Shown here: in pieces, positions 340 through 25,772 of the stretch | Position numbering within the stretch: position 1 is the stretch's first letter | Layout of the letters: every line of letters starts with the position of its first letter | Assembly: GCA_030141605.1 (NCBI GenBank) | Contig: JAQGDQ010000509.1 | Span: forward strand, 1 to 64,000 | Direction: 5' to 3' | Source of the DNA: Tubiluchus corallicola | Lineage: Eukaryota > Priapulida > Priapulimorpha > Priapulimorphida > Tubiluchidae | DNA: 64,000 nt | The notes under the pieces: generated by a model | Told to the model about the DNA's origin: nothing | What the model saw: only the letters and a program-made list of their open reading frames with translations | Database searches by the model: none | Program-made: the position numbers and the translations under genes

Positions 340-1705
340 CATTATCTTACTTGTGGAATTAGCTATAACCTGTTTATTATATTAAGGCAAGTTGCATACA
401 AGAATAGCAATATTTATTCAGAAAAGCAATTAGTTTTCCTTCAGCATCTGTAAAATGAAATTATTTTCAAATAGGTAAATGTGAAATAAGAGATGAAGAA
501 TTTTTTTTAACCTAATACTCAAGTTTTGTAAATGCTTTAAGGTCAAGAAAATCGGTGAAGTAGGTTTCAGAAAAATCGACTTAAAAATTATATTAATTTA
601 TAGCAATCTTAAGCGTATATCATACTCACACTAAAAGAAATTCCCACTGTCTTTTATTTTAAATCTCCGGCAATACTGTTCCAACTGTGCCATTACGTCA
701 AGCACCCACAACCTAAATCTTTAAACTACATGCACACATTGCACAGTATTGTACACCCAGCAAATTGAAAGACTTCATGATTGAGTACTTGTTGTTGGCG
801 GTGTGCACATTGTGGGAGATTGTACAGTACTTCCTGAAATTTCGCGAGTAACTTTTATCGATTTCTGATTGTCTAAAGTCATTTGGTTGGCGGGTTGAGT
901 TGCAAATTATTGTTAAAGACTACCGATTCATCCAATGGCGGCAAGGAAGTAGTAATAACATCTCGTCTGTGATTCACTCAGTGACACAGGAACTTCATTT
1001 TCAATTTCAGCTTAAATGGGGGCTCTTGGAATGACAGCTGCTGTGAACTTGATTCAAGTAGCAGCGAAAGTCTTGACTGTAAAATTTTATGCATTCACAT
1101 TTTATATTAACTTTTTGTTAGATTTGCACTGAAGATTTAAAAAAATGTTATTTTAGGTTTCTTTATCACGTAGATTTTTTTAAAACCTATAGGCCTTTTA
1201 CCCGAGGAAGCACTGCTTTAATTAGATATCGATGCATTACTAACATGTATTTACTTTTTAGGGTTTCACATTTTTTCATAAAAAACCATTATACTTTGAC
1301 TGAAATGTGTTCAACTTTCAGTCAATTATCATTTTCCTTTTACACTCCCTTGAGACCAAAGTTTTGGGTGATTTCGTTGTCAACTTGTTTGTCAAAATTT
1401 TTTAATGAATTAACTCACCTGAAGACACCGTGAGTAATTTTTATAAAAAGTAATTATTTTTTTATCAATTTACTACATACATGCAAGACTTTTGATTACA
1501 AAACACATTAGCAAGGAGTAACAATGATGTCCAGTTAAATTTAATGACAACTGACAAATAAAATAGCCTAATAATTTTGGTTGCCACTGGGCTTATTGCT
1601 GCTTGTGTCATCTAAACTAGATCCAACAATATCAACAACTTTGCAAATTAACAGTTATTATTCGAGCATTTATATTACTCATGTTTGGTTAACAAGCACA
1701 TGTGT
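340..1705. other. Spacer between inverted-repeat arms
   Basis: AT-rich sequence of 1366 bases. I searched both strands by eye for the next SHOC2 repeats and found none. Short open frames (for example 1245-1433, plus strand) have no recognisable domain or splice context. The stretch 660-960 is somewhat richer in GC but I can assign nothing to it. Confidence 0.5.
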
Positions 1706-2044
1706 AAATAAAATGAGAAAACACTATAAAATCCTTTTCAATAGCTGTAATAAACATTTACATTTAGCAGAAAAAATATTACATACGTGTACAGAGCAGA
1801 ACTGTGCTGGACCTCCCATTGGAAAGGCTGTAAATGCATTCCTAGATATGGTCAAACTCGATAATTTAGTTAAACTAGACAGCAAACCTTCCTGAAAATA
1901 TACAAGAAATTCTTCCAGTTAGGTGTACTGTAAAATTAAACAAGTCACCAATAAAAACCAATATGACGTTTATATATTGCCCTTCTGCAAAGCTTGCCAC
2001 AAAAAAGTAACCTTACCAGTTTTCCACATTGATGTAGAATATCA
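1706..2044 (-). repeat. Right arm of long inverted repeat
   Basis: This is the reverse-complement partner of 1-339. It contains the SHOC2 exon 1891-1787 in the orientation of the rest of the gene. Beyond 2044 the sequence continues as a normal SHOC2 intron up to the exon ending at 2536. Confidence 0.92.
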
Positions 2045-5000
2045 TATAAACGACTTAACCTTAAGTCCTTTATCAAACATTACACTTTATACTACATGAT
2101 ATAGTATAGAACTATCAAGATCACTACCCAAAAAGTTTAGTCTCAGTTCTTAAGGTTCTGGCTATTTAAAATGCATTTTTGGTAACTAAATGCCCTTAAA
2201 TTTGAGTCTGCATTCAAACCGTACACTCCACTCCAAACTGTAAATTTATTTTCTTTGTGTAAATATAATGTATGCAAGTACATATAATCATTGAATGGCT
2301 CAAATTAGTTATTAGAATAAAGATAACACCCAATTTTTAAATATTCATGGGTCATTGTTTATCTAATTCTGAGAGCCATTTGAAATATACATTGACACAC
2401 AATGTTATTTAAAAATTTATAATGCAATATAAATCCTGATCAACAATTGGTAATTTCTACAACTTGACACTAGGTCACCTTTGCGACAACATTTTGTTAA
2501 ACAAGTTACCAATTGTTGACACAGAGGCAACTCACCGGTAATTGTGAAATATTGTTTCCTTCTATGTTAAACTCTTCCAAGTTGACACAGTTGCTCAGAG
2601 TGCTTGGAACAGCATTTAGTCTGTTGTATCTATAATAATAAAAAATTAAGTAATATTCAACTCTTACAAATAAATAAGTGGTGTCTACCAGACATTAGGA
2701 ACACGATACATTATGTGTATCCGTTATAGATAAAAATCAGTTTATATTATTTTCAATGAACTCATTTATCAGATCTGCATATGCATTATTTTTTCCGCAG
2801 CTATTTCCTTTTGATTTTTAATGATTTCACATTCTTCTTGTAACTTCCAGGCACTAATAAAAGTTGATAAGTTATTTCCATTCTTTTCATATTTAAAGGC
2901 GAACAGGCAAAAATTAACTCACCTTAAGCCAAGTCTAGAAAGAGATGTAAGATTCCCTAAAGAATCAGGGATATCTCTGAGTTCATTATGTTGCAGGTCT
3001 AATGATGATGTGTGCTGACATCGTCCAATTTCTGAAATTTATTACACAGTAAAACAAACCATTAAATCTACATGACAAATGTGTAACACAAAGTGTAAAT
3101 TAATAATAAAGTAATGGGATTAAGCCTACTAAGCTCTTGCACAATTTAAACATAGGTTAAGAGACAACAACAAAATTTTGTTTTTCAACTGAAACAAAAG
3201 CAAAGAAAAATCTGAAAAGTGCAATGGTCAATCAACAGAAATCTCAAACATTCCACAACGTTCGAAATTTTCCTGACAATTTTTTTAGATAGCAAATCAA
3301 AATATCAAGGCATCACAAAACACCATTAAAATGCAATCATTATACATATATAATATTTCGGTTGTTCACCAGCCTTTCCCAAATGATAAATAACAGAAAA
3401 AAACAAATGCAAAGATCAGTTTGAAATCTTAAAACATTTAATGCAAGATATAATAGAACAATATATAAAAATTATTAAATTATGATGCAAATTGTAAGAA
3501 CAAAACACAAATTCACTATAGTAATGAGTAAATTTCCTCTAATGCTCAATTTTTGAATTTGATAACGGATTATTAACTGTAATAATTTATGCATGCTTCT
3601 TTGATCAAAAATTCGAATTAATTTCTGAGAGACTTGCAGTATAACTACATGTCTAAATTTGTCTGAAGTGATTAGTTCATTACAAAAAGTTAGATGTGCA
3701 ACACTTAATTAACTATTTCTATGTTTGCGTTCATAATTTGATTACCTAGTTGCGTTATAGTCTGACCTATATGCTGATTGTTGGAACTAAGACATCTAAA
3801 CTATATATCACATTGGCAAGACGAAAATTATGACAAGGAATATCTTTTTCTCTGAAACATAAAGATGTGAACATATTCTTTGTATTGATAGAAATTGGCT
3901 TCATTATATTAGCAGCCCGAAAAATAAAGCTAATGTTATTTGCTCTTACACTGCTGATAAATGGCAATTTTGCACATCCAAATAGAATTATTTTAAGGCT
4001 TGATTATTGGAACTAATTAACATCTTGAATACTAGTAGCAGTTGTAGTAGGATCTGCAACAGACATGTTTGTAAGATTTCAAAAATTTCTATTGTTTACA
4101 TTATTTGAGAAGGCTAAAGAACAACCAAAAGTTCAAAATGTCATGCCAACATTCCAACATATTTACATTTAATTTTTTAGAATATGAATTAGGAATGTGC
4201 ACAAATAATTGATTATCCTATGTACAGTGTACTGACCATACGATCAATACCACCAGCTCATTTACGGAGGCAAAAACCAACATACTGTCTCGACAAAAAC
4301 AATCTGCAATCTTGCCACCTTTGCCTTGTCGTAGACAAAGAAAAACAGTCATTCCACAGTCTTGATAATTGCCGCCTGGGATAAATCACGAGGGAATTGG
4401 ATATACTGTATATACTTAGTCATCACTATGAAATCAAAGAGCTTGGTCAGAGAACCTTATGGAAAAATTAATTCAAACACTGCAGAATATTCATTCCACA
4501 GTCAGCTCACTGCCTTGCGTAATTCACTGGGAAATTGGGTATACTGCATATACTGAGTCGCCATTATGAAATCAAAGAGCTTGTTCAGAGAACCTTATGG
4601 AAAAATTAATTCAAACACTGCAGAATATTCATTCCACAGTCAGCTCACTGCCTTGCGTAATTCTCTGGGAAATTGGGTACACTGTATATACTGAGTCGTC
4701 ATTATGAAATCAAAGAGCAAGTCTAGCTAGAAATTAATCAGTAGAAATATGAATAAAACTCATAATACTTTTAATTTATGTGATCTGAGCAGCAATGATT
4801 TTTGCCTTTGGAATATATCTCAATTCTTTGCGTCGTAACTTAACACCATATTTTGCTGGAACACAATAGCATTGTAAAAATGAGGACTTACTATATACAA
4901 GTTTAGAAATTTAGGACAGGACAAAAGTCAAGGTGGCTTTACCAAGCTGTATGTAATAAAGTTCTACCTTCAGGTAAATGTTCTAGGTGGTTGTGGGCAA

Positions 5001-8000
5001 CATCGAAATTTACTAAGTTCACTAGTCGACCGATAGCTCGTGGCAATTCTTTGATTTTATTTTCTCTCAGACTCAACATACTCAAATGCTGAAAATATAA
5101 TTAAACAAATAAACAAATAAAAACTTAAAAAGAATCTTTAACAGCAAGTTTGCAATAAGTTCATTTCAAATACTAGTAAAAGTCTAGGACCTAGACAAGT
5201 TCACCTTGTCCATTTTTATTAAATACCAAAATATTTTCTTTGCTTTTCTCATTGGTAGAAACAGAATCATCTAATAAACAATAAATGTGATGTTACCCTA
5301 CAGCAACATATAGTACCCATTTGATAAACCACTTTGATCCAATAAACAATGATTTGCAACTGCAATAACTCATGAATGTTTGTTATGATTTACAACCTAG
5401 ACAAGGCATCTACCAGAACAAAATATGCTTGCTTTTAGGGAATTAGTGCATTTATAAGCCATTTTGAAAATCAATGGCTTACTATTTCGTATTTTGAAAT
5501 ACCTGATACAAGTCAGAGATAATATGACTTCACACAGAATAATATGACATTTTATAACTTTATTATAAAAAATGAATTAATTCCTTCAAGAAGGGCATGT
5601 CAATGTCAAACCTTGCATATTTATCTCCATCAAATGTCATTGTGATATTTAATTCATAAGATTTGGATAAATTTGTTTCTTGCACCATGTGCATTCGTCT
5701 TAAAAAAACATACGTTTTTGTTTCAGATATTTCATAATTGTTTTATGCACTTCATTTCGTTTTTGCAAAAGCATGGATATTTGCTTCTTATATAACAGGT
5801 TATTTATTTCATATAATCAAACACATTTTTTATTTTTATACTGTTCAAAAATTACATGTATTTGTTTCTTAAATCACATGTATTTATTTTAAACAGTTTT
5901 CTGTTATGAATTCTGAAATAACTCATGCAGTCACACTGTAGAAATTGTCTCTATCAGTGTGGACCCAATAATTATTGTAAATGCTTTTTAGTGCTAATGA
6001 TTCATTTACAGCTGTTTGACAACAGGCAAGAAAAATGACAAGAGTGGTGATAGTATATGCTTTTAAACTCACAATGTTGCGCCTGGTTGGGCATGGATGG
6101 GTAATACCAGGAAATCACTTTTGGAAATTTTATGTACTTCTTTGAGGCAGAATGTATAAGACAGAGCAGTATCTGTTAAATCATCATCTCATCTTAGATT
6201 AGTTTTCATAAAGAGGTAAGTTGTGGTCATGACTACATCGTTTCTGTTTGCAATTTGAAATGTTTGATCTTTACTCATGCATTAATCTACCCAAAATAAA
6301 AAGTAGCTTCATTAATGATATAGCAAACATTCAACTTACCACCAAAGAACCGATTTCGTCTCCAACTTCTTTGATTCGATTAAATCTAAGGAAGAGCGTC
6401 GTCAGTGATGTTAATTTGTACACTACGCTTGGTATCTAGAACAAACGGTAGTTTTCTATTAATTATTGAATTAGCATCACGATAATGATCTTAGGGTGAG
6501 CTAGCAATGAATTAAACGGAATAACCTCCTCATTGATTCATTCACTGAAATCCTATCCCACATTCCTGTGCAACAAAGGCATTAATAAACTGCTAATTTC
6601 TTGTAGATCTGTCAGTTTATTATGTGTTAAGCTAATAATATATTTGATTGTTTATGTGCAATACCTTCATTTCCACGAAATGGCAAACATGTGGTGTACA
6701 ATATAAATTTGTGCAAAGCTGCAATCACAAGTAGTTATAATCTTGCATAAACAGTAACATTATACAATCACTTCTTTACTTTTTTATTATCTATTTTTAT
6801 TTTAAACAAACTAGTTACATGCATATTACTTATAAACATACACAGAGAAAAAGGAAAAAATATGAAGCAATGAAGACCTAATAAAGTAGTAAAACACTGC
6901 TGTTTTATTGGTTCACTCACCTCTGTAAGTTTGTTATGTCTTAAATCAAGCACCCGTAGCTGTCGAAGATTTACCAAACTTTCCGGGAGACTCATTAACG
7001 AGTTTTCACTAAGTGCCAGAGTCTGCAAGTTTACCAACTGTCCTATTTCCGTCGGAAGAGTTGTCAATTTGTTGCCATACACATAAAATTCTACTAGGTG
7101 TTTAAGCTCTTTCACGGAAGGTGGCAAAGCAGAAATCTGCAAAAAAAATTTCAAACCTCCCAATTTTTGACAAAACACTGATAAATTTTGGACTTCTATG
7201 TGAAATTCTATCTAATTTAGTGACACTTTTACTCCCAAAAGAACATTCATCAATTGAGTTTAATTCTAATTATTTGCACTGCAAAAAAAGAACAAGAATG
7301 AAGTTATCTCTTGCATCACACATTTTAAATACTATCACGCAGTGGTTCAAGATTCTGGGTTCAGCATTCAAGATTATGCCTGTAACTGTTATAAACAACA
7401 ATTCTAAAACTTCTTTATTCACATCAAAAAATAATAATAGATAGTCACAATTCAATATGTCACATTCATGGCAGGAAAACCTATAGTGAAAAAAAAAAAA
7501 ACAACAAAGACCGGACAAGCCCACATATTTAAAATGTGAAGTTGCAGCAAACAGAATTTAGTCTTTTGTTTTGCTTTATAGTCTCAGAATTTTACTCCAA
7601 GAATTCTGTAAAACCAAGAACACCTGCTGCATAAATTACCTATATTTGATCATTGAATTCCTCACAGTTTTGGAGCATTAAGTTAAACAATTTGCAAAAA
7701 AAGATAAATTTATAAACTCAATATGATATTTCAATATACAGTGAAATAAAAAAAATGGCAAATCAATTGATCTATTACAGCTGGATATACTCTAGCTGAT
7801 CAAACCATGAAGCAGTTGTTTCCAACTTCAGATACTAAGTTAATTATATAAACTAGTAAAAAAGAACAAAATTTTAGCAAAAACGTGTAGCAACCAATTG
7901 AAGCAGTGATAATAATATGATGAATGTGATGAACTTACACTTGATTTACTTAAATCTATCCTAGTATTTCCCTCTTCTTTACATCGGCTAAATTCTTTGG

Positions 8001-11000
8001 AAACATCCTGTTAAGAAACAAAAGTTATTTACTAAAAGTGAAATTAACTACCAGGAAATGATGTGGCGGACATTTAAAGATCTTTTCAACACAACTTAAA
8101 TGCACTTCCGCTTGTACTTGCATGTGTGAATGCATGTGCTTACATACAAGTTTGTGACAGTGACTTTTTATAATAAAATAAAAATGGATAAACAGATAAC
8201 ATGTCGTTATACAGCTTTTCAGAATAAGATCAATAGTGGCATGAATGCGAGCAATATAAAGTCATGCTGCAATTAAAAGATATTGATGTCAGACATTTTA
8301 ATATTTTAAAGAATATGACAAAGACGTTCCAGCAATGAAAAGAAACTATTTCCCAATTTCAATGGCAAGAAGTAACGTGACATATGAAATAATGCTGCTG
8401 GTGTGCACACTTGCATACATTTTCATGTCTCAAACGTCTGATGACGAATATAAAAATATATTTTCATATCATACCAAAGATTTTTACACATAGAAAACTA
8501 TCTTTATTACTTGTAATAAAAAAAGTTCAGGTGGGCCAAATAACTTACTAGGTCAGCTGTGGCAAAAGCCTTCCCCTTTTTAACTGTTGGATTTGTAGGT
8601 TTGGCTTTGTTAGAGCCTGGTTGTGATACCATGACTTGTCGAGGTCGTGTTGGGTCAGGTTGTGAAGTAGTAGTCATGCTCGGCTTCTTCTCCTGCAGTT
8701 AAATAAACATATTTATTTATGCAAATATTACTTACTTTATTTACTGCATGTATTGCAGTAGATTCAAGACTGCATAGAATTACGATTTAGATCTAAGGTT
8801 GGTTATATGACAGGCAATAAGTAATTAGTGTTTGGTTAAGTATATTATAATAATTTACTTAAATAAGTCCTAAATAATTATTATCAGTTATGGTAACTCT
8901 TTAGATATTCAGCTATTTCACCTATATATCCAACGAAACGATAAATTATTATACTCAGCTAAAATTTATGTTTTTCTTAAACATTCATTACTACACCAAG
9001 TGTTTTATAGGCTTAAGAATTTTAGTTGCAGGTAAATAATGAGCCTACTAGTAATTCAGCTTACCAGCTGAATGTGCTACTTTTTGCAGCTATCGCTAAG
9101 TTACCGTTACATGAAATTCCCACTGATAGCTGTGCTATTAGCAGTAGAGCTCAAATCATGGTCGTGGTAACCACAGAGTCTCAGGGGTCCAGGGATCATA
9201 CTGATACTGGCATTGACACTATGGGGATAATTTAGGTTATCAACAGTACCTATAGTTTGATTTGTCAGGCTTTACAGGCTCTGTAATGTTGTTAAGTTAG
9301 TGTGAATGTAGTGCCTTTACTATAGCACTCATATCTCGGTTTGCAGGACCTCGTTTTTATGGATATCGAAAAAATCGGACAAAATCTGGACCGTTAAAAG
9401 TACAGCATATTACAATCCGTTGTTTCGTGTGCTGACCGCTAGTTGGCGGGCTGTCACTTTGTTTACATCATTACGTCAGTACAACTGTATACTTTGTATG
9501 TTAGGAAAGGCCGGTACTAGATGTTTATGATACATTAGGCAATTACTCTACATTACCGTGAATCTTATACACAGCACCTACTGTATTAGCTTAGTATCGG
9601 CAAATATGGACAATCAGCAAATTTGAACCGACGTTTTCCCACTTTTCTCTGGCAGACCGAGATATGAGTGTACAACCACTAAATCCACTGTTACAAAGCA
9701 GCCATGAGAACTAACTGTGTCGTGCCTATGCATAATTTTTCCATATATTTGCATATAAAAGCTTTATTAGTCATTTTACAAAATAAGACATTGCAACTTA
9801 TGCTATATAAACCCAAACTTCGTCAGAACAAATCCTCAGTGAACATCACTAAAGTCATTTAAGTGCAGACAAAATGCTTTTATCATGCCTCAGTCTGCAG
9901 TGACACCAGCTGGCAAAAAGCCAACACTGCAGTACTCGTGAATTTAAACAAAAATTTTTGCATTTGTTCCTTACTTAAACATCAGCCAATGCCTGTTGGA
10001 GATTAATAAGTTTTCCAGCAGTCTAACCCACCAATGGTCAATCATTATCATGGGACTTAATGCATAAGCTAGTTGTGATGATACAATGAGCACACAATTA
10101 TTTTAAGTTTAGTGAAAGAAAAGTCAGTATCGAATATGAAGCTGGAATATTATATTGCCCACAGCCCTTCATGACACAGGCAGCTTTTAGCTCAATAATT
10201 TTTCCTGTACTGGTGGGCCACAGTAGGTGCACACGAAATTAAATAGCCTTATAAGTGGTTATATCCTGGCAACAGTGATAAAAATAAGTGGGATATACAT
10301 ACATTACTCTTACATACATTACTTCATAAATTATATGTAACACCTGCATCTTTAAAATAAAATGGACAGAAAGTAGAATGTGGGATATACATACATTAGT
10401 CTTACATACATTACTTCATAAATTATATGTATCGCCTGCATCTTTAAAATAGAATAGATAGAAAGCAGAATACAACAGAAAATCTTTGCTGCATACTGAA
10501 TGTTTACCATCCAGTTTTCTTGTTAAGTGAAATACAGTAACAAAAGTTTTAAGTTGTCTGCTAGCTGTAGTAACTATGGCAGCATGCTATAGAAATAATT
10601 ATTGAAAGAATGCAGAGTATTAAGTGTAGGCAGGGCACGTGACTTATGTTTCATAAATCTATACATCTGCTTGGTCAGCAGTGAAGTATATTGTCAAGCA
10701 TCTGCCGTGTAAATTAACGCTAATGACCACCTTGCATCTAGGAATCTAATTTTTTTTTAAATCAGAAATATAGGAAAGTTTCATATATTATGCATAAATG
10801 ATCAAAAACGACGCATTATTAACGTAAGCGAAAATTTGAGATATGTGATGCGATTTTAAATGATTTTTTATGTGTATTAGCATAGGAGCTCAACGGGACT
10901 TTTAAATGTGATATGAAATAACCAAAACTACAAATTTATGAGATAAGTGATAAGTGGAGTTAAAATGTATCCATTTTCTAGCTAGTATTTGAAAAGTCCA

Positions 11001-18499: not shown

Positions 18500-19059
18500 T
18501 GTTGTTGTTGTTGGCATCCTTCTGTCTCGGAAGAGAATGGAGTGTGCGCCAAGAGAGTCAGTTATTGATCGCATTGATGGAGCTGCAGCGTCGACTGTGG
18601 TTGAGCAGTGCGATCCTTGGACGTCTCCAGGGCGCACGCCTGGGCAATGTGTATGGAGATCCTGAGTTGCCCAGACAACAGGAACCCCCTCTCTTCCTCG
18701 CTGGTGTAGTCCAAAGGAAAGCGGAGCGACACGTTTGGCACCAGGTTGGCTGGAGGAGCTGCCGGAGTCAGTGAGCATGCTGCACTGGTCCGCCTTCGGG
18801 GCTCCACTCCTGATTTGGAAGGTTTACTCCTCTACACATGGCTGTTGGGTCACTTGACCTTCTCCGCCCTCTAGCCGTTGGCTGCTTATGCAGCTCCCTC
18901 CGCCTAGTGTCGAGATACAGCGTGGGCATCCCGCAAGCCTACAGCACCTGGTATTCCTAGGCGGTCACCCATCCAAGTACTAACCAGGCTCTACGTTGCT
19001 TAACTTCGGTGATCAGACCAGAACCGGTGTTTTCAACGTGATTTGGTCGTAGTCTGTAG
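18500..19059 (-). mobile_element. 5S-rRNA-headed SINE (SINE3-like)
   Basis: Read on the minus strand this 560-bp insert starts with a 5S rRNA-like head (19054-18937), continues with a GC-rich body of about 420 bases, and ends in a short (CAA)n tail next to 18500. It is flanked by an exact 11-bp duplication, 18489-18499 and 19060-19070. That combination is diagnostic of LINE-mobilised, Pol III-transcribed SINEs whose promoter comes from 5S rRNA (SINE3 class). The body is open in several frames because it is GC-rich, but I recognise no protein. Base composition is clearly unlike the AT-rich surroundings. Confidence 0.8.
18937..19054 (-). rRNA. 5S rRNA-like sequence (SINE head, probably not a gene)
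   Basis: On the minus strand it carries nearly the whole 5S rRNA: 'cacgttgaaaacaccggttc', 'gatcaccgaagttaagcaac', and the internal control region with 'cttggatgggtgaccgc' and the 3' 'ataccaggtgctgtaggc'. It is 118 bases long versus the usual 120, with substitutions in the first 20 bases. No T-run terminator follows, and the sequence runs on into the SINE body, so this is a retroposed head rather than a ribosomal gene. Confidence 0.85.
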
Positions 19060-19573: not shown

Positions 19574-20662
19574 TGTGACGCCGGGTTTTACTTGTTGGTT
19601 CTCTGTTCTTTATTTAAACCAGATTTACTTCAACAATTCCCAAACTAGTACTCCTAGCCGAGCGGTGAGGTAGTAGCACACAGATGTTAATAGTTTAGAA
19701 ACTGAATCAGTTTCTCATAGGTACCTCTACGGGGCGTACCTTGAGATAAAAGATGTTGGTTCGAATCACGAGTGGGATCTTAAGTGTCGGCCTTGAGTTG
19801 CTGTTATTGTGTTTAGCTAACAAAGTGTGAACTATTCATAATATTTTTACTATTCAAATACTTTTTAAACGTTCACAAAGAAACGCATTCCAAGATACAT
19901 ATTTTGTGTATAAAGAACAATCAAAATTTAATTAACAAATTTGTGATGATATGATCAAAAAGATAATTTTCAAAAGCAATCAGATAAATACGAGGCAAAA
20001 CCCAACTAAAGATAAACAAATTAAGATTCTAATACACTAGGTACTCACTAATTACCCTTTCCCTGGGAGGTGCACCGAATAACCTGTCCACGCTGAGGCG
20101 GTTCACTGTCCATTAACGTCTTGGCATGCCACATAATCACTGGTGACGTCACTGGAAACGAAGTCTGCACTATCCAGTAGATGAGGTAGGTGAGGTGACA
20201 TCGTGAATGGTTTAACTTTCTCAGAGGCTGGCGTCAGGTAAATTTATGCGGCGATATTCAGTCCAACCTTCCACATGAACAGTAGTAACCCCATAACGGC
20301 TTAAGCAAACTGTCCCAAGTGTCCGTTTGGCTTTAAATTCCGACAGTGCACAAAATGTATCACAACATATCTGGACTGCTCAAAAACGTTACTGTCCTTT
20401 AACTGTAATCACAGTTATAAAATGCTAAATGCCAAACTGCAACAAATTACATAGTCCGCAGGTAACACGTACCGAGAAAACGTTTTACTTCATAGCTATA
20501 AACGTGCCGACTGAAACCGTCGAAATAAACTAGGACGACAACCTGGTTTCCAACTTATGCATTTGTTGAAGGACAGGTGTGTGGCTTTCCCATCCCGCAG
20601 TACTTACAGTACCTATTCGTAATACTAGCTAGACATTCATGTATAGTAAACTGTTCATAACA
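19574..20662 (-). repeat. 3' LTR (element orientation)
   Basis: Begins TGTGACGCC and ends TAACA on the plus strand, thus with TG...CA ends. It is 1089 bp. Compared with the other LTR it has an extra 8-bp 'taggtgag' step near 20185 and scattered substitutions concentrated after 20330. Confidence 0.92.
19664..19770 (+). other. tRNA-like Pol III boxes within the LTR (antisense)
   Basis: 'ctagccgagcggtgagg' (A-box like, class II tRNA type) is followed about 95 bases later by 'ggttcgaatcac' (B-box like), with a hairpin 'agaaact'...'agtttct' between. The order and strand resemble a tRNA-Leu/Ser gene with an insert, or a SINE captured by the LTR. The same array occurs in the other LTR at 24784-24890. 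The acceptor stem is not convincing. Confidence 0.4.
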
Positions 20663-20674
20663 TTCGCCCCTCCT
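20663..20674 (-). other. Polypurine tract
   Basis: On the minus strand 'aggaggggcgaa' abuts the 3' LTR directly, the expected site for plus-strand DNA priming. Confidence 0.7.
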
Positions 20675-20857
20675 AAGAGAGTATCTGCATGACAGTGTAA
20701 ATAGCATCAGATACTCAAAAGATACTCCAAGTAGATGGGCATATATTTAAAAAAAATGGTGCTAGTGGGTGCAAATGCATTGCAGTGCAACATATTTTAT
20801 GTGTGAGTGCACCCTCAACAGAGCCATACTGAGAAATATTTGTGTCTCCATCAAAAT
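20675..20857 (-). other. Deletion scar: end of RT remnant to polypurine tract
   Basis: RT homology stops abruptly after 'RAYRIP..HKRAEV' near 20858. The fingers/palm motifs, YxDD box, tether and RNase H are all absent. The remaining sequence has no match I recognise and is probably 3' noncoding sequence of the element. Confidence 0.65.
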
Positions 20858-22378
20858 CACTTCTGCACGTTTGTGGGCTTGTGGAATCCGGTAGGCTCTC
20901 TGATGTACAGGTTTGCAATCTTCATGTGCTAACAGGATCTTGTGCTTAATCAAGGAAGTGCGTCCAGGGATATCTGTAAAAATATCACTGTAATCTTGAA
21001 GCACCTTTTGGAGTTCTATCTTTTGTTCTGCAGACAAGTACTTGGGGGTGGCTACATCATGTACAAATTGTGTTTGCTGGGCTCCTGGCGTAAATGCTTC
21101 TTCTGGCAGGTGGGCAGCTTGGAGCATGTCAGCGAAAGAGTCAGAAACTTGGGTGTCTGAGTGCAAATCATCGACCCCTGGGAATTCATATCCTGATTCC
21201 AAACACTGAGAGTACAAAGCAAAACTCTCCGAGCGTCTGATATACGGTTTGAGGAGATTGATGTGGAATGTCTGAGTTCTTTTCTTTCTGCCACGACCAG
21301 TAATGGCGACTTTATAAGTATGCTCAGAAATTTTGTCCACTACCTGATAAGGTCCGCGCCACTGTTTTGACAGCTTGTTGTGAGCCTCGGGAAGTAGTAC
21401 TAATACTTCTTGGCCAACTTCTAATGCATGCGTAGTTGTGAGCCGATCATACCAACGCTTCTGCGCCAACTTTGCTTCCTGTAGAGCAGTATGAGCATCT
21501 TCTGTTGTTTGCTCAAGCTCATTGATAACACGATGGACGTAGTCGTCTACCTGTTCTAGTGTTGGTGGATCCAGATCGCCCCACTTGCGACGTAATGCAG
21601 CCATGGGGCCTCTCACAGGAAAGCCATAGACAAGGTCAAATGGGCTGTATTTCAATGATTCCTGAGGGACCTCACGATAGGCAAATAATACAAAGGGTAT
21701 CAACTCATCCCATTCCATCGAGCGCTGGGTTTGTAAAAGTTTTCGTATCGAATTCTTTAGTGAAGAGTTAAATCTTTCTGTCACTCCCTGAGATTCTGGG
21801 TGGTAAGGTGTTGAGAAAATGCCTTTCACACTGAGTGCTTGCTCAAGGTCTGCAATAAGAGTAGATGTAAATTGTGTCCCTCTGTCCGACTGTATTGTTC
21901 GAGGTACACCATGCCTGCAGATGAATTGAAGCAAAGCTTTTGCAACTTCACTAGCAGATTCTGTCTTCAATGGATATGCATCTGGGTACCTGGTAGCTTG
22001 GTCAACTATAACCAATGCGTACTTGTGTCCAGCTTTAGTCCTGGGCATTGGCCCAATAAGATCAATGCATATAGTAGAGAAAGGTTCTTTAACTACCGGA
22101 TGTGGCTTCAAGGGTGCTCTATCCCTTTTCATGACCCTGGAAGTCTTCTGGCAGGCTGGACAAGACTTAACATAGCTTTCTACTTGCTTGCGCATTCCAG
22201 GCCAACAGTACTGACTTGCAATACGATCCCAAGTCTTCTTTTGACCTTGGTGAGCAGAAGTTAGTCCATCATGAGCCAATTTGATGACTTCTTGACGTCT
22301 GGCTTTAGGTAGTGCCAAACGATGTAATATTGTGCCACGAGCTCTTCTAGATAGTAGCCACTTTTGCTCTCGATGCAT
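20858..22378 (-). pseudogene. int: Ty3/gypsy integrase with GPY/F module, fused to the start of RT
   Basis: Counting from the Met at 22378: HHCC zinc finger with His36, His43, Cys73, Cys76; catalytic D,D35E triad at Asp106 ('CIDLIGP'), Asp165 ('QSDRGTQF') and Glu201 ('GVTERFNS'); GPY/F module 'WRGPYQV' at 340-346. From 447 the frame enters the N-terminal part of a gypsy reverse transcriptase ('LSAEQ', 'DIFTDIPGRT', 'CKPVHQRAYRIP'), ending at about residue 507. After 20858 the reading is unrelated sequence of about 180 bases up to the polypurine tract. The integrase would insert element DNA. Its catalytic residues are intact, but the upstream frameshift disconnects it from gag-pro. Confidence 0.9.
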
Positions 22379-22686
22379 TCGTTTTTAGGCTTAACGTGAT
22401 CTAGCCAGTTGCGTAACGTTACGTCGGCTTTCTGTTCTTCTGCGAGCTTGGCCTTGCTCAGTGAGTCCAAGACTGATTGTTGCTTACTGGCAGTTTTCTC
22501 CTTTATGACTGGTAGTGGCACATCTCGTTCATTCTGCATTCGAGTTCTGGCCTCAGCTTTTGCATCTTCAGTCAGTATCTTTGCTTTAGCTCTTGTCGTC
22601 ACCGGCAGCACAAAATTTAAAGTTTGACCTCTCTTATTTGGGTGAGAACGTTGCCTTTTCCTTTTGGTTTCACCTTTCACAGCCAT
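22379..22686 (-). pseudogene. Protease-integrase linker segment
   Basis: Open frame rich in Lys, Arg and Glu, ending in a hydrophobic 'LRNWLDHVKP' stretch. It is joined to the protease by one frameshift (near 22680) and to the integrase by another (near 22380). I recognise no domain. It sits where a Ty3/gypsy element of ordinary order would carry reverse transcriptase, and it holds none. Confidence 0.55.
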
Positions 22687-23207
22687 TGCATAAGTTGCTT
22701 TCTGTGCGCTGGGATCCTCAACTGTATTGTTGGGCTTTTCTTTACATCAGCAGTTAAGGGAGACCGTATTGGCTTATTCAGGCATGTTTCTCCAGCCATC
22801 ATCGGCTTTATCTCTGCCATAAAATCATTACCAAGTATCAGAGGTACTGGGCTGCTTGACACAACAGCAATGGTTAAGAATCCTGTGGCATATGGACTAG
22901 ACACTTCAACCACCGCCACTGGGCATGACTTATTACAGTCGTGGATGCATCTAAGATCGTGGTAAACATCTTTGAGATATTGATCATCTCTTACATAGCT
23001 TGGGTTAGCCACACTTCTAGAAGCTCCTGTATCACGTAGGCCCAAAACATTAACTCCATTTAAAGTAGCATGGAAATAAGGGTGCCCTGTTACACACTGA
23101 GTAGGTCCAACTTCAGCAGTAGCTAACATTACAGCTTCACTTGGTTTTAGAGCTAAAAGTTGCTTGTATGGTGTTTTTGGTTTCTCAGGAGGAGTTACAC
23201 CAGTTCG
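22677..23207 (-). pseudogene. pro: Retrotransposon aspartic protease
   Basis: It continues in the gag frame after the TAA at 23208. The catalytic motif 'LRDTGASRSV' is at about 23040-23011 (Asp-Thr-Gly at 23033-23025), with a flap-distal 'PLILGNDFM' segment about 80 residues later, typical of retropepsins ('iLGxDfl'). It would cut the gag-pol polyprotein. The frame closes at 22679-22677, and the linker to the integrase continues in another frame from about 22686, so a frameshift separates them. Confidence 0.85.
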
Positions 23208-24497
23208 TTATGCTCTTTTCAGTGAACAGGCATTAGACATGTGACCCACTTTTCCACAATGGTAGCAAGTCACGTTAGGATTAGCCGCAGGTAGACTAAA
23301 GGTATTACGCTTACTGTCAGAAAATTGTCGCCTGCGATTATCTGGTGCTGGAGGTTTAAATCTCGACAATGAGGACCGAGGATTTTGTGCAGACATGTAT
23401 GCATCAGCTCTCTCAGCTGCCTCATCAAGGTCGTACATGGCGTTCTTCTTGAGCTAAAGTGCTACTTCTGCAGGCAGAATAGCCATGAATTGCTCGTATA
23501 CCAGAAGATCAATGGCTTCCTCAACTGTGCTAACTGAAAGTGATTTGCCCCAATTCTTTGCAGCTTGCCTTAGCCGTACCAAAACTTGTGCACATGTCTC
23601 ATCCTTTTTCTTTATAAGGTCACGAAAGGTCACACGATAACTTTCCGGACTGATTAAGTAAGCCTGAAGAATTGCTTGTTTGACCTTCTCATAATCCTGC
23701 AGATCTTCATCGTCTACGAGCTGGAAAGCATTGCACGCTTTTCCAGACAAATGAGGAGCCAAAGACGCACAATAGCGAGTCATAGGGATGTCATTGACAG
23801 CGCAGGTTTTCTCAAAGTACGTGAGCCATTCTAAAATGGTTTCACCTTGTCCCTCTTTATAGGGTCTCAACTTCAAGCGTTTCTCATTAACTGCTGAAAA
23901 GTTTCTCTCATCCGGAGTGGGGGTTAAAGCCGCTGTAGCTGCTGAACGGTGCGTCCTTTCAGCCATCCTTAGCTCATGCTCCCTACACTCTCTACGTTCT
24001 CTTAGCTCCAATTCACGCATGCTCAGTTCATTCTCTAACCTCATTTTCTCCAGTTGAAGGACAAGTGTGGCTTGGTCCTGTGTTTGGACACCTGCCAAAT
24101 CATAATTCCCTGCTACGTTCGCACCAGAAAATGTTCCTCGCCCTCCTCCTTTAGATAGTGGTGTAGGCGCAATCCTTGAAAGTTCTGGTGGACCTGGAGG
24201 TGTCATCAATGCTGCATCCAATGTCTCTTCTTCTGTTTCATCCTCTTCTTCTTCCTTTCCTTCTCTGTCTTCTTCTTCATTTTCTGTGAGAAGCTTCTCC
24301 ACTGCACTATGCCCAGTTACGCTCATCCCAGGGCCCTGAAGGGAATTTAGCATTGCCTGCTGTTTCAAAATAGCATCTATTAAAGTAGGCTTTGTTCTGG
24401 GAAGGACTGATATACCGATTTCACGTGCAATTACTTTAAGTGTTTCAACAGTCTCATAATTCAATGAAACAGGGGTGTACGTCGCCTTATGAGACAT
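23208..24497 (-). pseudogene. gag: gag: capsid with SCAN-like domain and zinc knuckle
   Basis: The likely start is the ATG at 24497 ('MSHKATYTP'). Residues 20-55 form a helical segment, followed by a Glu-rich stretch and a long charged coiled coil ('LENELSMRELELRERRE'). The capsid follows. Its C-terminal part, about 23651-23400, resembles the vertebrate SCAN domain ('SYRVTFRDL', 'LLVYEQFMAILP'), which is thought to descend from a Gmr1-like gag. A CCHC knuckle 'CYHCGKVGHMSNAC' ends the frame. One in-frame TAG at 23456-23454 splits the SCAN-like region, and a TAA at 23210-23208 precedes the protease in the same frame. Gag would package element RNA. Two clean stops without frame loss suggest recent decay, or less likely readthrough. 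Confidence 0.85.
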
Positions 24498-24672
24498 GAC
24501 ATTTAGTGGGAAGGGTTTACATAATCGTAGAGTAACAATGTTTACATGCACCAAAACTGAGGGTGTCTACTTTAATTCTGATTATGAAACACCCGTTTCA
24601 ATAGTGCAATACTTTACTCAAAGCGTTCTATTAATCAACTGTATAATAACCAGCAGCTCAATAACTGACAAG

Positions 24673-24690
24673 ATCCCACCGCTGCCACCA
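24673..24690 (-). other. Primer-binding site, tRNA-Leu type
   Basis: Three bases inside the 5' LTR, the minus strand reads TGGTGGCAGCGGTGGGAT. Its complement ATCCCACCGCTGCCACCA is, as I recall, the 3' end plus CCA of animal tRNA-Leu(AAG). An 18-base match at this position is what minus-strand DNA priming requires. Confidence 0.78.
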
Positions 24691-24693
24691 AAA

Positions 24694-25772
24694 TGTGACG
24701 CCGGGTTTTACTTGTTGGTTCTCTGTTCTTTATTTAAACCAGATTTACTTCAACAATTCCCAAACTAGTACTCCTAGCCGAGCGGTGAGGTAGTAGCACA
24801 CAGATGTTAATAGTTTAGAAACTGAATCAGTTTCTCATAGGTACCTCTACGGGGCGTACCTTGAGATAAAAGATGTGGGTTCGAATCACGAGTGGGATCT
24901 TAAGTGTCGGCCTTGAGTTGCTGTTATTGTGTTTAGCTAACAAAGTGTGAACTATTCATAATATTTTTACTATTCAAATACTTTTTAAACGTTCACAAAG
25001 AAACGCATTCCAAGATACATATTTTGTGTATAAAGAACAATCAAAATTTAATTAACAAATTTGTGATGATATGATCAAAAAGATAATTTTCAAAAGCAAT
25101 CAGATAAATACGAGGCAAAACCCAACTAAAGATAAACAAATTAGATTCTAATACACTAGGTACTCACTAATTACCCTTTCCCTGGGAGGTGCACCGAATA
25201 ACCTGTCCACGCTGAGACGGTTCACTGTCCATTAACGTCTTGGCATGCCACATAATCACTGGTGACGTCACTGGAAACGAAGTCTGCACTGTCCAGTAGA
25301 TGAGGTGACATCGTGAATGGTTTAACTTTCAAAGAGGCTGGCGTCAGGTAAATTTATGCGGCGATATTCAGTCCAACCTTCCACATGAACAGTAGTAACC
25401 CCATAACGGCTTAAGCAAACTGTCCCAAGTGTCCGTTTGGCTGTAAATTTCGATAGTGCACAAAATGTATCACAACATATCTGGACTGCTCGAAAACGTT
25501 ACTGTCCTTTAACTGTAATCACAGTTATAAAATGCTAAATGCCAAACTACAACAAATTACATAGTCCGCAGGTAACACGTACAGAGCTAACGTCTTTACT
25601 TCATAGCTATAACGTGCCTACTGAAACCGTCGAAATAAACTAGGACGACAACCTGGTTTCCAACTTATGCATTTGTTGAAGGACAGGTGTGTGGCTTTCC
25701 CATCCCGCAGTACTTACAGTACCTATTGGTAATACTAGCTAGACATTCATGTATAGTAAACTGTTCATAACA
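24694..25772 (-). repeat. 5' LTR (element orientation)
   Basis: 1079-bp partner of 19574-20662, with the same termini. Transcription of the element would start within it, reading leftward. Confidence 0.92.
24784..24890 (+). other. tRNA-like boxes in the second LTR
   Basis: Copy of 19664-19770. Here the B box reads 'gggttcgaatcac', one base closer to consensus than in the other LTR. Confidence 0.4.

Follow-up and report, generated by a model that had tools for sequence, protein, structure and literature searches.

Structure of the element

We identified an LTR retrotransposon on the minus strand of the window (the whole 64,000-nt stretch of Tubiluchus corallicola DNA that was analysed) at positions 19574–25772; all of its parts described here lie on that strand. 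The element is bounded by two LTRs that form a direct repeat and are 97.5% identical. The 5' LTR (24694–25772; 1,079 nt) starts with TGTTATG and terminates in CACA, and the 3' LTR (19574–20662) is 1,089 nt long. The 5-mers bordering the LTRs, GCCTA and GCGTA, match at four of five positions and are possibly an imperfect target-site duplication. A perfect duplication (CTTAG) is found at L004, one of ten related loci (L001–L010) that were fetched for close study.

A primer binding site (24673–24690) lies 3 nt inside the 5' LTR and is complementary at 18 of 18 nt to the 3' end of a tRNA-Leu. The corresponding tRNA 3' end is present at three places in the genome, and the one occurrence fetched sits in a tRNA-Leu gene (ARAGORN). 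The same 18-nt site adjoins the 5' LTR in L001, L003 and L010 and is also present in L002, where the LTRs were not delimited; 12 of its 18 nt are present in L004 and L007. No stretch of the site of at least 12 nt was found in L005, L006, L008, L009, a divergent element described below (L038) or seven ordinary Ty3/gypsy elements of the same genome. At the other end, a purine-rich tract read directly from the sequence (20664–20679) precedes the 3' LTR and is likely the polypurine tract. The same stretch lies ahead of the 3' LTR in L001, a close relative with 1,087-nt LTRs that are 99.5% identical.

The open part of gag (23454–24566) encodes 370 amino acids. The SCAN/CA-CTD domain of gag (23385–23648; PF02023, E 1.1e-9) covers positions 1–87 of the 90-position profile and contains one in-frame TAG. 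The three solved chains found to match this domain are all SCAN domains (ZNF174, E 0.001; ZNF42, 0.005; PEG3, 0.008). Next come a CCHC zinc knuckle of the nucleocapsid type (23223–23270; PF00098, E 2e-6) and an aspartic protease (PR; 22806–23084) with DTGA in its translation, which narrowly passes its Pfam cut-off (PF00077 RVP, E 3e-4, 21.3 bits against 20.7). A piece 92% identical to this protease is found immediately before the integrase in L001.

The integrase (INT; 21245–22309) consists of the H2C2 zinc-binding region (PF17921, 7e-23), the rve core with its DD35E triad (PF00665, 3e-16) and an Integrase_p58_C/SH3 tail with the GPY/F motif (PF22938, 8e-9). Residues D88, D147 and E183 as well as G324-P325 are invariant across ten aligned integrases, and the G-P-Y/F motif is present in all ten. 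By translation, the following stretch (20873–21244) is a linker and the first part of a gypsy-type reverse transcriptase (RT), in frame with the integrase and upstream of the RVT_1 domain. The initial annotation had placed an integrase with a GPY/F module directly after the protease and had joined integrase and RT in a single frame, and both statements hold. It had confined the feature to 20858–23207; the feature is real, but the element is larger, with LTRs on both sides and gag upstream of PR. The RT part that it named is present as well, but only as the stretch upstream of RVT_1, and both RVT_1 and RNase H (RH) are missing.

No Pfam match to RVT_1 was obtained in the window copy because approximately 1.25 kb has been deleted. 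In blastn alignments with L001, window positions 20870–25772 correspond to 996–5928 and positions 19574–20873 to 7176–8471, so that the flanking alignments share 4 nt and place the deletion junction at 20870–20873. The L001 sequence between 5928 and 7176 is absent from the window copy. Since in L001 RVT_1 starts at 6019 and the reading frame ends at 7143, both within this gap, the whole RT catalytic domain and RNase H have been lost. The junction was not seen among the loci examined, and two near-identical copies, L002 and C2304, are truncated at contig ends. In addition, the stretch from gag to PR is interrupted by two in-frame stops, and the reading frame shifts twice on the way from PR to INT. 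The last two domains do not share a frame in the window copy, whereas the L001 frame is open from gag to RNase H. Judged from its sequence, the window copy is dead and non-functional and cannot make RT. Given the RT–RNase H deletion, the window alone cannot prove the domain order; other copies do.

Several other features were noted in the window and the genome. A full-length 5S rRNA-like sequence (18936–19054, minus strand; Rfam RF00001, 101 bits) lies about 0.5 kb from the 3' LTR of the element and may be a gene or a pseudogene, or may belong to a 5S-derived SINE. Positions 6771–7211 form an open stretch, again on the minus strand, that resembles leucine-rich repeats by eye and is perhaps a host gene exon. 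A homeodomain search of the genome returned 118 rows, 20 of which were fetched. Several read like what we take to be Hox genes, one of them presumably AbdB-like, which marks the host as an animal, and contigs C2085 and C2308 (L028, L032, L033) carry three homeodomains that we assume to be Msx-like. Two of these three lie on C2085, roughly 25 kb from each other and in opposite orientations. Searches of the genome for COX1, molluscan haemocyanin, innexin, bindin and arthropod cuticle families returned 0 matches; COX1 was recovered in 8 of 14 control genomes, whereas the four animal families matched in no control, which makes their zeros uninformative.

Integrase precedes reverse transcriptase across the genome

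The genome (343.5 Mb in 2,344 contigs) was searched with the integrase-to-RT-start piece of the window, which gave at least 90 integrase rows. The integrases of L001–L010 are 49–98% identical to that of the window, L001 being the 98% match. Pfam was run on 28 of the 30 overlapping tiles possible for these loci, all but the gag tiles of L007 and L008. INT lies upstream of RT in all ten, as it does in the divergent L038, giving 11 of 11 loci. RH is found downstream of RT in nine of these; L002 reaches a contig end, which cuts its frame at 1,357 aa, and the 1,494-aa frame of L003 stops before RH. A protease piece lies directly ahead of INT in 10 of 10 loci by tblastn with the window protease, while Pfam lists the protease in some loci only, that of L001 being split by tile edges.

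The initial annotation had called for a genome search for full-length copies with the same LTR. L001 is bounded by LTRs, has the same INT–RT order and contains one open frame of 1,641 aa running gag-PR-INT-RT-RH. Pfam identifies SCAN, CCHC, INT, RT and RH in that order, and tblastn places PR between CCHC and INT. A single frame of 1,471–1,652 aa extends through RH in eight of the ten loci, and the seven full frames (L001 and L005–L010) measure 1,613–1,652 aa.

Pairing of 90 integrase rows with 115 RT–RH rows placed RT downstream within 2.5 kb in 60 and on neither side in 30. The INT–RT spacing is 136–166 nt in 45 of the 60 paired rows. Among RT rows of at least 50% identity, 58 of 79 were paired with an integrase row and 21 were unpaired; eight of the 36 rows below 50% were inspected and comprise seven elements with RT before INT and one, L038, with INT before RT. 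Rows do not equal copies in these counts, as C1556, C2104 and C541 each yield two integrase rows from one stretch, and some rows whose coordinates nearly coincide on separate contigs (such as C1787 and C2264) may reflect duplicate haplotypes.

The INT–RT order is therefore real and common to every examined relative in which both domains can be placed. The order protease, integrase, RT that the initial annotation had claimed is visible in the window as PR, INT and the start of RT, and its proof comes from the other copies. Intact copies with RT between PR and INT, which that annotation had named as contrary evidence, were not found: no RT row lies within 2.5 kb upstream of any of the 90 integrase rows. 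The 1.25-kb deletion, stops and frame changes of the window copy could be read as signs that the order came about when an ordinary Ty3/gypsy element was rearranged in this copy or in a few copies, but we consider this vanishingly unlikely and reject it, given that upstream count, the open frames of 1,613–1,652 aa in seven of the ten fetched loci and the same order in single-frame, LTR-bounded copies such as L001, L006 and L008. The copia-like order is instead a stable, inherited trait of a diverse lineage with SCAN-type gag in this genome.

Relationship to ordinary Ty3/gypsy elements

The enzymes of the relatives are of the Ty3/gypsy type. Their RT consists of RVT_1 with RT_RNaseH or RT_RNaseH_2 in Pfam, and among solved chains it is closest to the Ty3 RT–RH (E 6e-72). 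The nearest solved chain to the integrase profile is the Ty3 polyprotein (E 1e-55), and RVT_1, RT_RNaseH, Integrase_H2C2, rve and Integrase_p58_C were found in most INT–RT loci. No copia RT family was listed at E 0.01 in the relatives, in which RT is of the RVT_1 type only. By these domain assignments the element belongs to Ty3/gypsy and not to copia, its copia-like order notwithstanding. A Ty1/copia element, in which PR-INT-RT would be the normal order, has domain order as its one point of agreement and next to no probability, and it was rejected on the gypsy-type RT, RNase H and integrase of the open copies, the last with both H2C2 and GPY/F.

Seven ordinary gypsy loci of the same genome (L011–L017) were analysed by the same method as controls. 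Their RT, RNase H and integrase domains are of the kinds seen in the window family, and their RT–RH is 36–42% identical to that of L001. However, RT–RH precedes INT in all seven, the opposite of the window family. This agrees with the statement in the initial annotation that ordinary Ty3/gypsy elements place RT–RNase H before integrase. The control loci have an extra frame upstream that overlaps pol in most of them, and none of the seven has a match in a genome-wide SCAN search.

Trees were built from elements of this genome only and hold no Gmr1, mag or Cer references. In the integrase tree, 11 INT–RT and seven RT–INT integrases were compared, and a branch with 100/100 support separates the INT–RT class from the other. 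The same division is found for RT–RH pieces (10 INT–RT and seven RT–INT; 100/99). When L038 is added the INT–RT class still lies on one side of the branch, with weaker support (94/91 for INT and 95/91 for RT). The tree program issued a long-branch warning for the RT tree without L038 and for the INT tree with it. The groups L001/L002/L003, L004/L005/L007 and L006/L008/L009 appear in both trees, and INT and RT have thus travelled together. A scan of viral_contigs with the integrase alignment produced 13 pattern matches, none of them a relative.

SCAN-type gag and a divergent lineage

The genome-wide SCAN search returned 112 matches. SCAN is above the Pfam cut-off in the window copy, in nine of L001–L010 and in L038; in L009 it is below the cut-off, with no match in the genome-wide search. 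The SCAN domain is said to come from the gag of Gmr1-like elements in the cited part of one report (PMC3424704), and it is reported, in the cited part of another, from over half of frog Gmr elements only (PMC4131045).

Seven SCAN loci with no co-located integrase row were fetched (L038–L044). L038 (G000:C1958:295500-304500) encodes SCAN, CCHC and protease in one frame of 529 aa and INT-RT-RH in another of 1,042 aa. The two frames are separate and overlap, and the integrase is 38% identical to that of the window. L038 looks like an old sister lineage that has the order and the SCAN domain with gag and pol unfused. Only the first part of the integrase is kept in L039, L040, L042 and L044. L041 has SCAN, CCHC and protease with no INT or RT match, and L043 has SCAN, CCHC and a scrap of H2C2.

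Some SCAN loci have shortened frames. L039 (G000:C177:1763000-1772000) is another deletion derivative. Its frame of 821 aa contains SCAN, PR and an incomplete integrase, shortly after which comes the end of RNase H. An 821-aa frame with SCAN also occurs in C1534, C2041, C2189 and C246, making five rows in total, of which L039 alone was read. Frames of 979 aa with SCAN were observed in G000 contigs C1862, C2091, C2163 and C1082, with a late RT–RH match in the first three. The room in these frames is too small for a full integrase, and they are possibly an integrase-deleted derivative.

We consider it highly probable that the feature in the window is a Gmr1-like LTR retrotransposon of the Ty3/gypsy (Metaviridae) type, present as a dead copy with an internal deletion. 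The Gmr1-like identity proposed in the initial annotation is supported by the order in 11 of 11 loci, the gypsy-type RT and INT, the SCAN gag and the concordant INT and RT trees. Because those trees hold no Gmr1, mag or Cer reference, membership in Gmr1 rests on order and SCAN and not on phylogeny. This leaves some room for an independent Ty3/gypsy lineage outside the Gmr1 clade in which the INT–RT order arose convergently, a reading with which the diversity of the INT–RT elements here, including the deep L038, would also be compatible. However, both the SCAN-type gag and the order agree with Gmr1-like elements, and in both trees a single branch separates all INT–RT elements tested, L038 among them, from the others. 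We therefore regard convergence as improbable and retain the Gmr1-like assignment.

Derivatives lacking reverse transcriptase

One of the 30 integrase rows with no RT row is the window copy, and 15 of the other 29 were checked through their downstream flank. RT/RH remnants were found downstream in 12 of the 15 flanks, although those in L051 belong to an inverted neighbouring copy. The other three are L055, with the integrase tail and the RT start, L057, with the integrase tail only, and L050, with nothing. In 11 of the 15 flanks the match starts at or after position 144 of the RT–RH queries (approximately 354 aa). The whole RT is present in L058, in two frames.

A single junction, joining L006 positions 5001 and 5735 with 16 unaligned nt, is common to seven of seven L006-related loci: L045–L049, L051 and L059 on contigs C390, C1249, C1927 (twice), C1845, C1977 and C2207. 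It differs from the deletion junction in the window. All of RVT_1 (5125–5607, Pfam) is gone from this derivative, and RNase H and integrase are kept. The net loss is 717 nt, a multiple of three, and the frame from INT through RH is open in three of the six loci checked (L046, L048 and L049) and not in L045, L047 and L059. When the distal 1,500 nt of six loci were compared, similarity in 15 of 15 pairs extended over no more than the first 168 nt and stopped at the end of the LTR. The downstream flanks are unrelated beyond that point, and the six loci are therefore separate insertions.

These observations suggest that the RT-less L006-group derivative spread by means of RT provided in trans. More generally, we lean towards the view that RT-deleted derivatives retaining Gag, PR and integrase have arisen from the Gmr1-like clade in this genome and have spread in trans. 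With integrase placed ahead of RT, the Gag-PR-INT polyprotein can remain uninterrupted when part of RT is deleted. The derivatives thus suggest a simple consequence of the INT–RT order, namely that deletion of RT spares the integrase.

Relatives whose frames are open encode one Gag-PR-INT-RT-RNaseH polyprotein. From what is generally known of LTR retrotransposons, the RNA would be packaged in particles of SCAN-type Gag, tRNA-Leu would prime synthesis, RT–RH would copy the RNA and the integrase would insert the product. PR would have to excise the integrase from between PR and RT. The window copy presumably arose by insertion followed by, or together with, the RT–RH deletion, with stops and frameshifts also acquired.

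Comparison with Gmr1-like elements

The copia-like order is already known as the hallmark of Gmr1-like elements, with published examples from fish, frogs, tunicates, crustaceans and an annelid. Gmr1 of Atlantic cod was reportedly described by Goodwin and Poulter in 2002. In the portions of the literature cited here, Gmr1 and Gmr1-like elements are Gypsy elements with INT upstream of RT (PMC6238403, PMC8220671, PMC2582038, PMC2774666). The initial annotation had described the clade as known mainly from deuterostomes and scarcely characterised elsewhere. The second part of this description is dated, as the cited sections of two reports place protostome elements in or near the Gmr1 clade according to their authors: GyRex4, Gychoro2, GyMaja1 and GyLiva4 of crustaceans (PMC3587641) and LGF3 of the annelid Lamellibrachia luymesi (PMC8220671). 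GyRex4 and GyRex5 are described there as partial sequences (PMC3587641). The shown portion of a mollusc survey table contains no Gmr1 row (PMC6238403). In this setting, the copies with near-identical LTRs and the deep unfused lineage found here would help to time the change of order and the fusion of gag and pol.

The elements of this genome share with Gmr1-like elements the PR-INT-RT-RH order, gypsy-type enzymes and a SCAN-like gag. They differ in that the window copy has no RT–RH and in that gag and pol are unfused in L038. The seven full frames resemble in length the fused Gag-Pol of tetraodontiform Gmr families, which is given as 1,506–1,634 aa in the cited part of that study (PMC11117352). 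Fusion is not diagnostic of Gmr1, however, because Mag families in the same table also have a fused Gag-Pol, of 1,330–1,365 aa (PMC11117352). The LTRs of the window element (1,079–1,089 nt) are longer than the 337–518 nt tabulated for tetraodontiform Gmr elements in that portion of the study (PMC11117352). The SCAN domain is also shared with vertebrate SCAN-domain zinc-finger genes; here, however, it is part of a retrotransposon gag and not of a host transcription factor.
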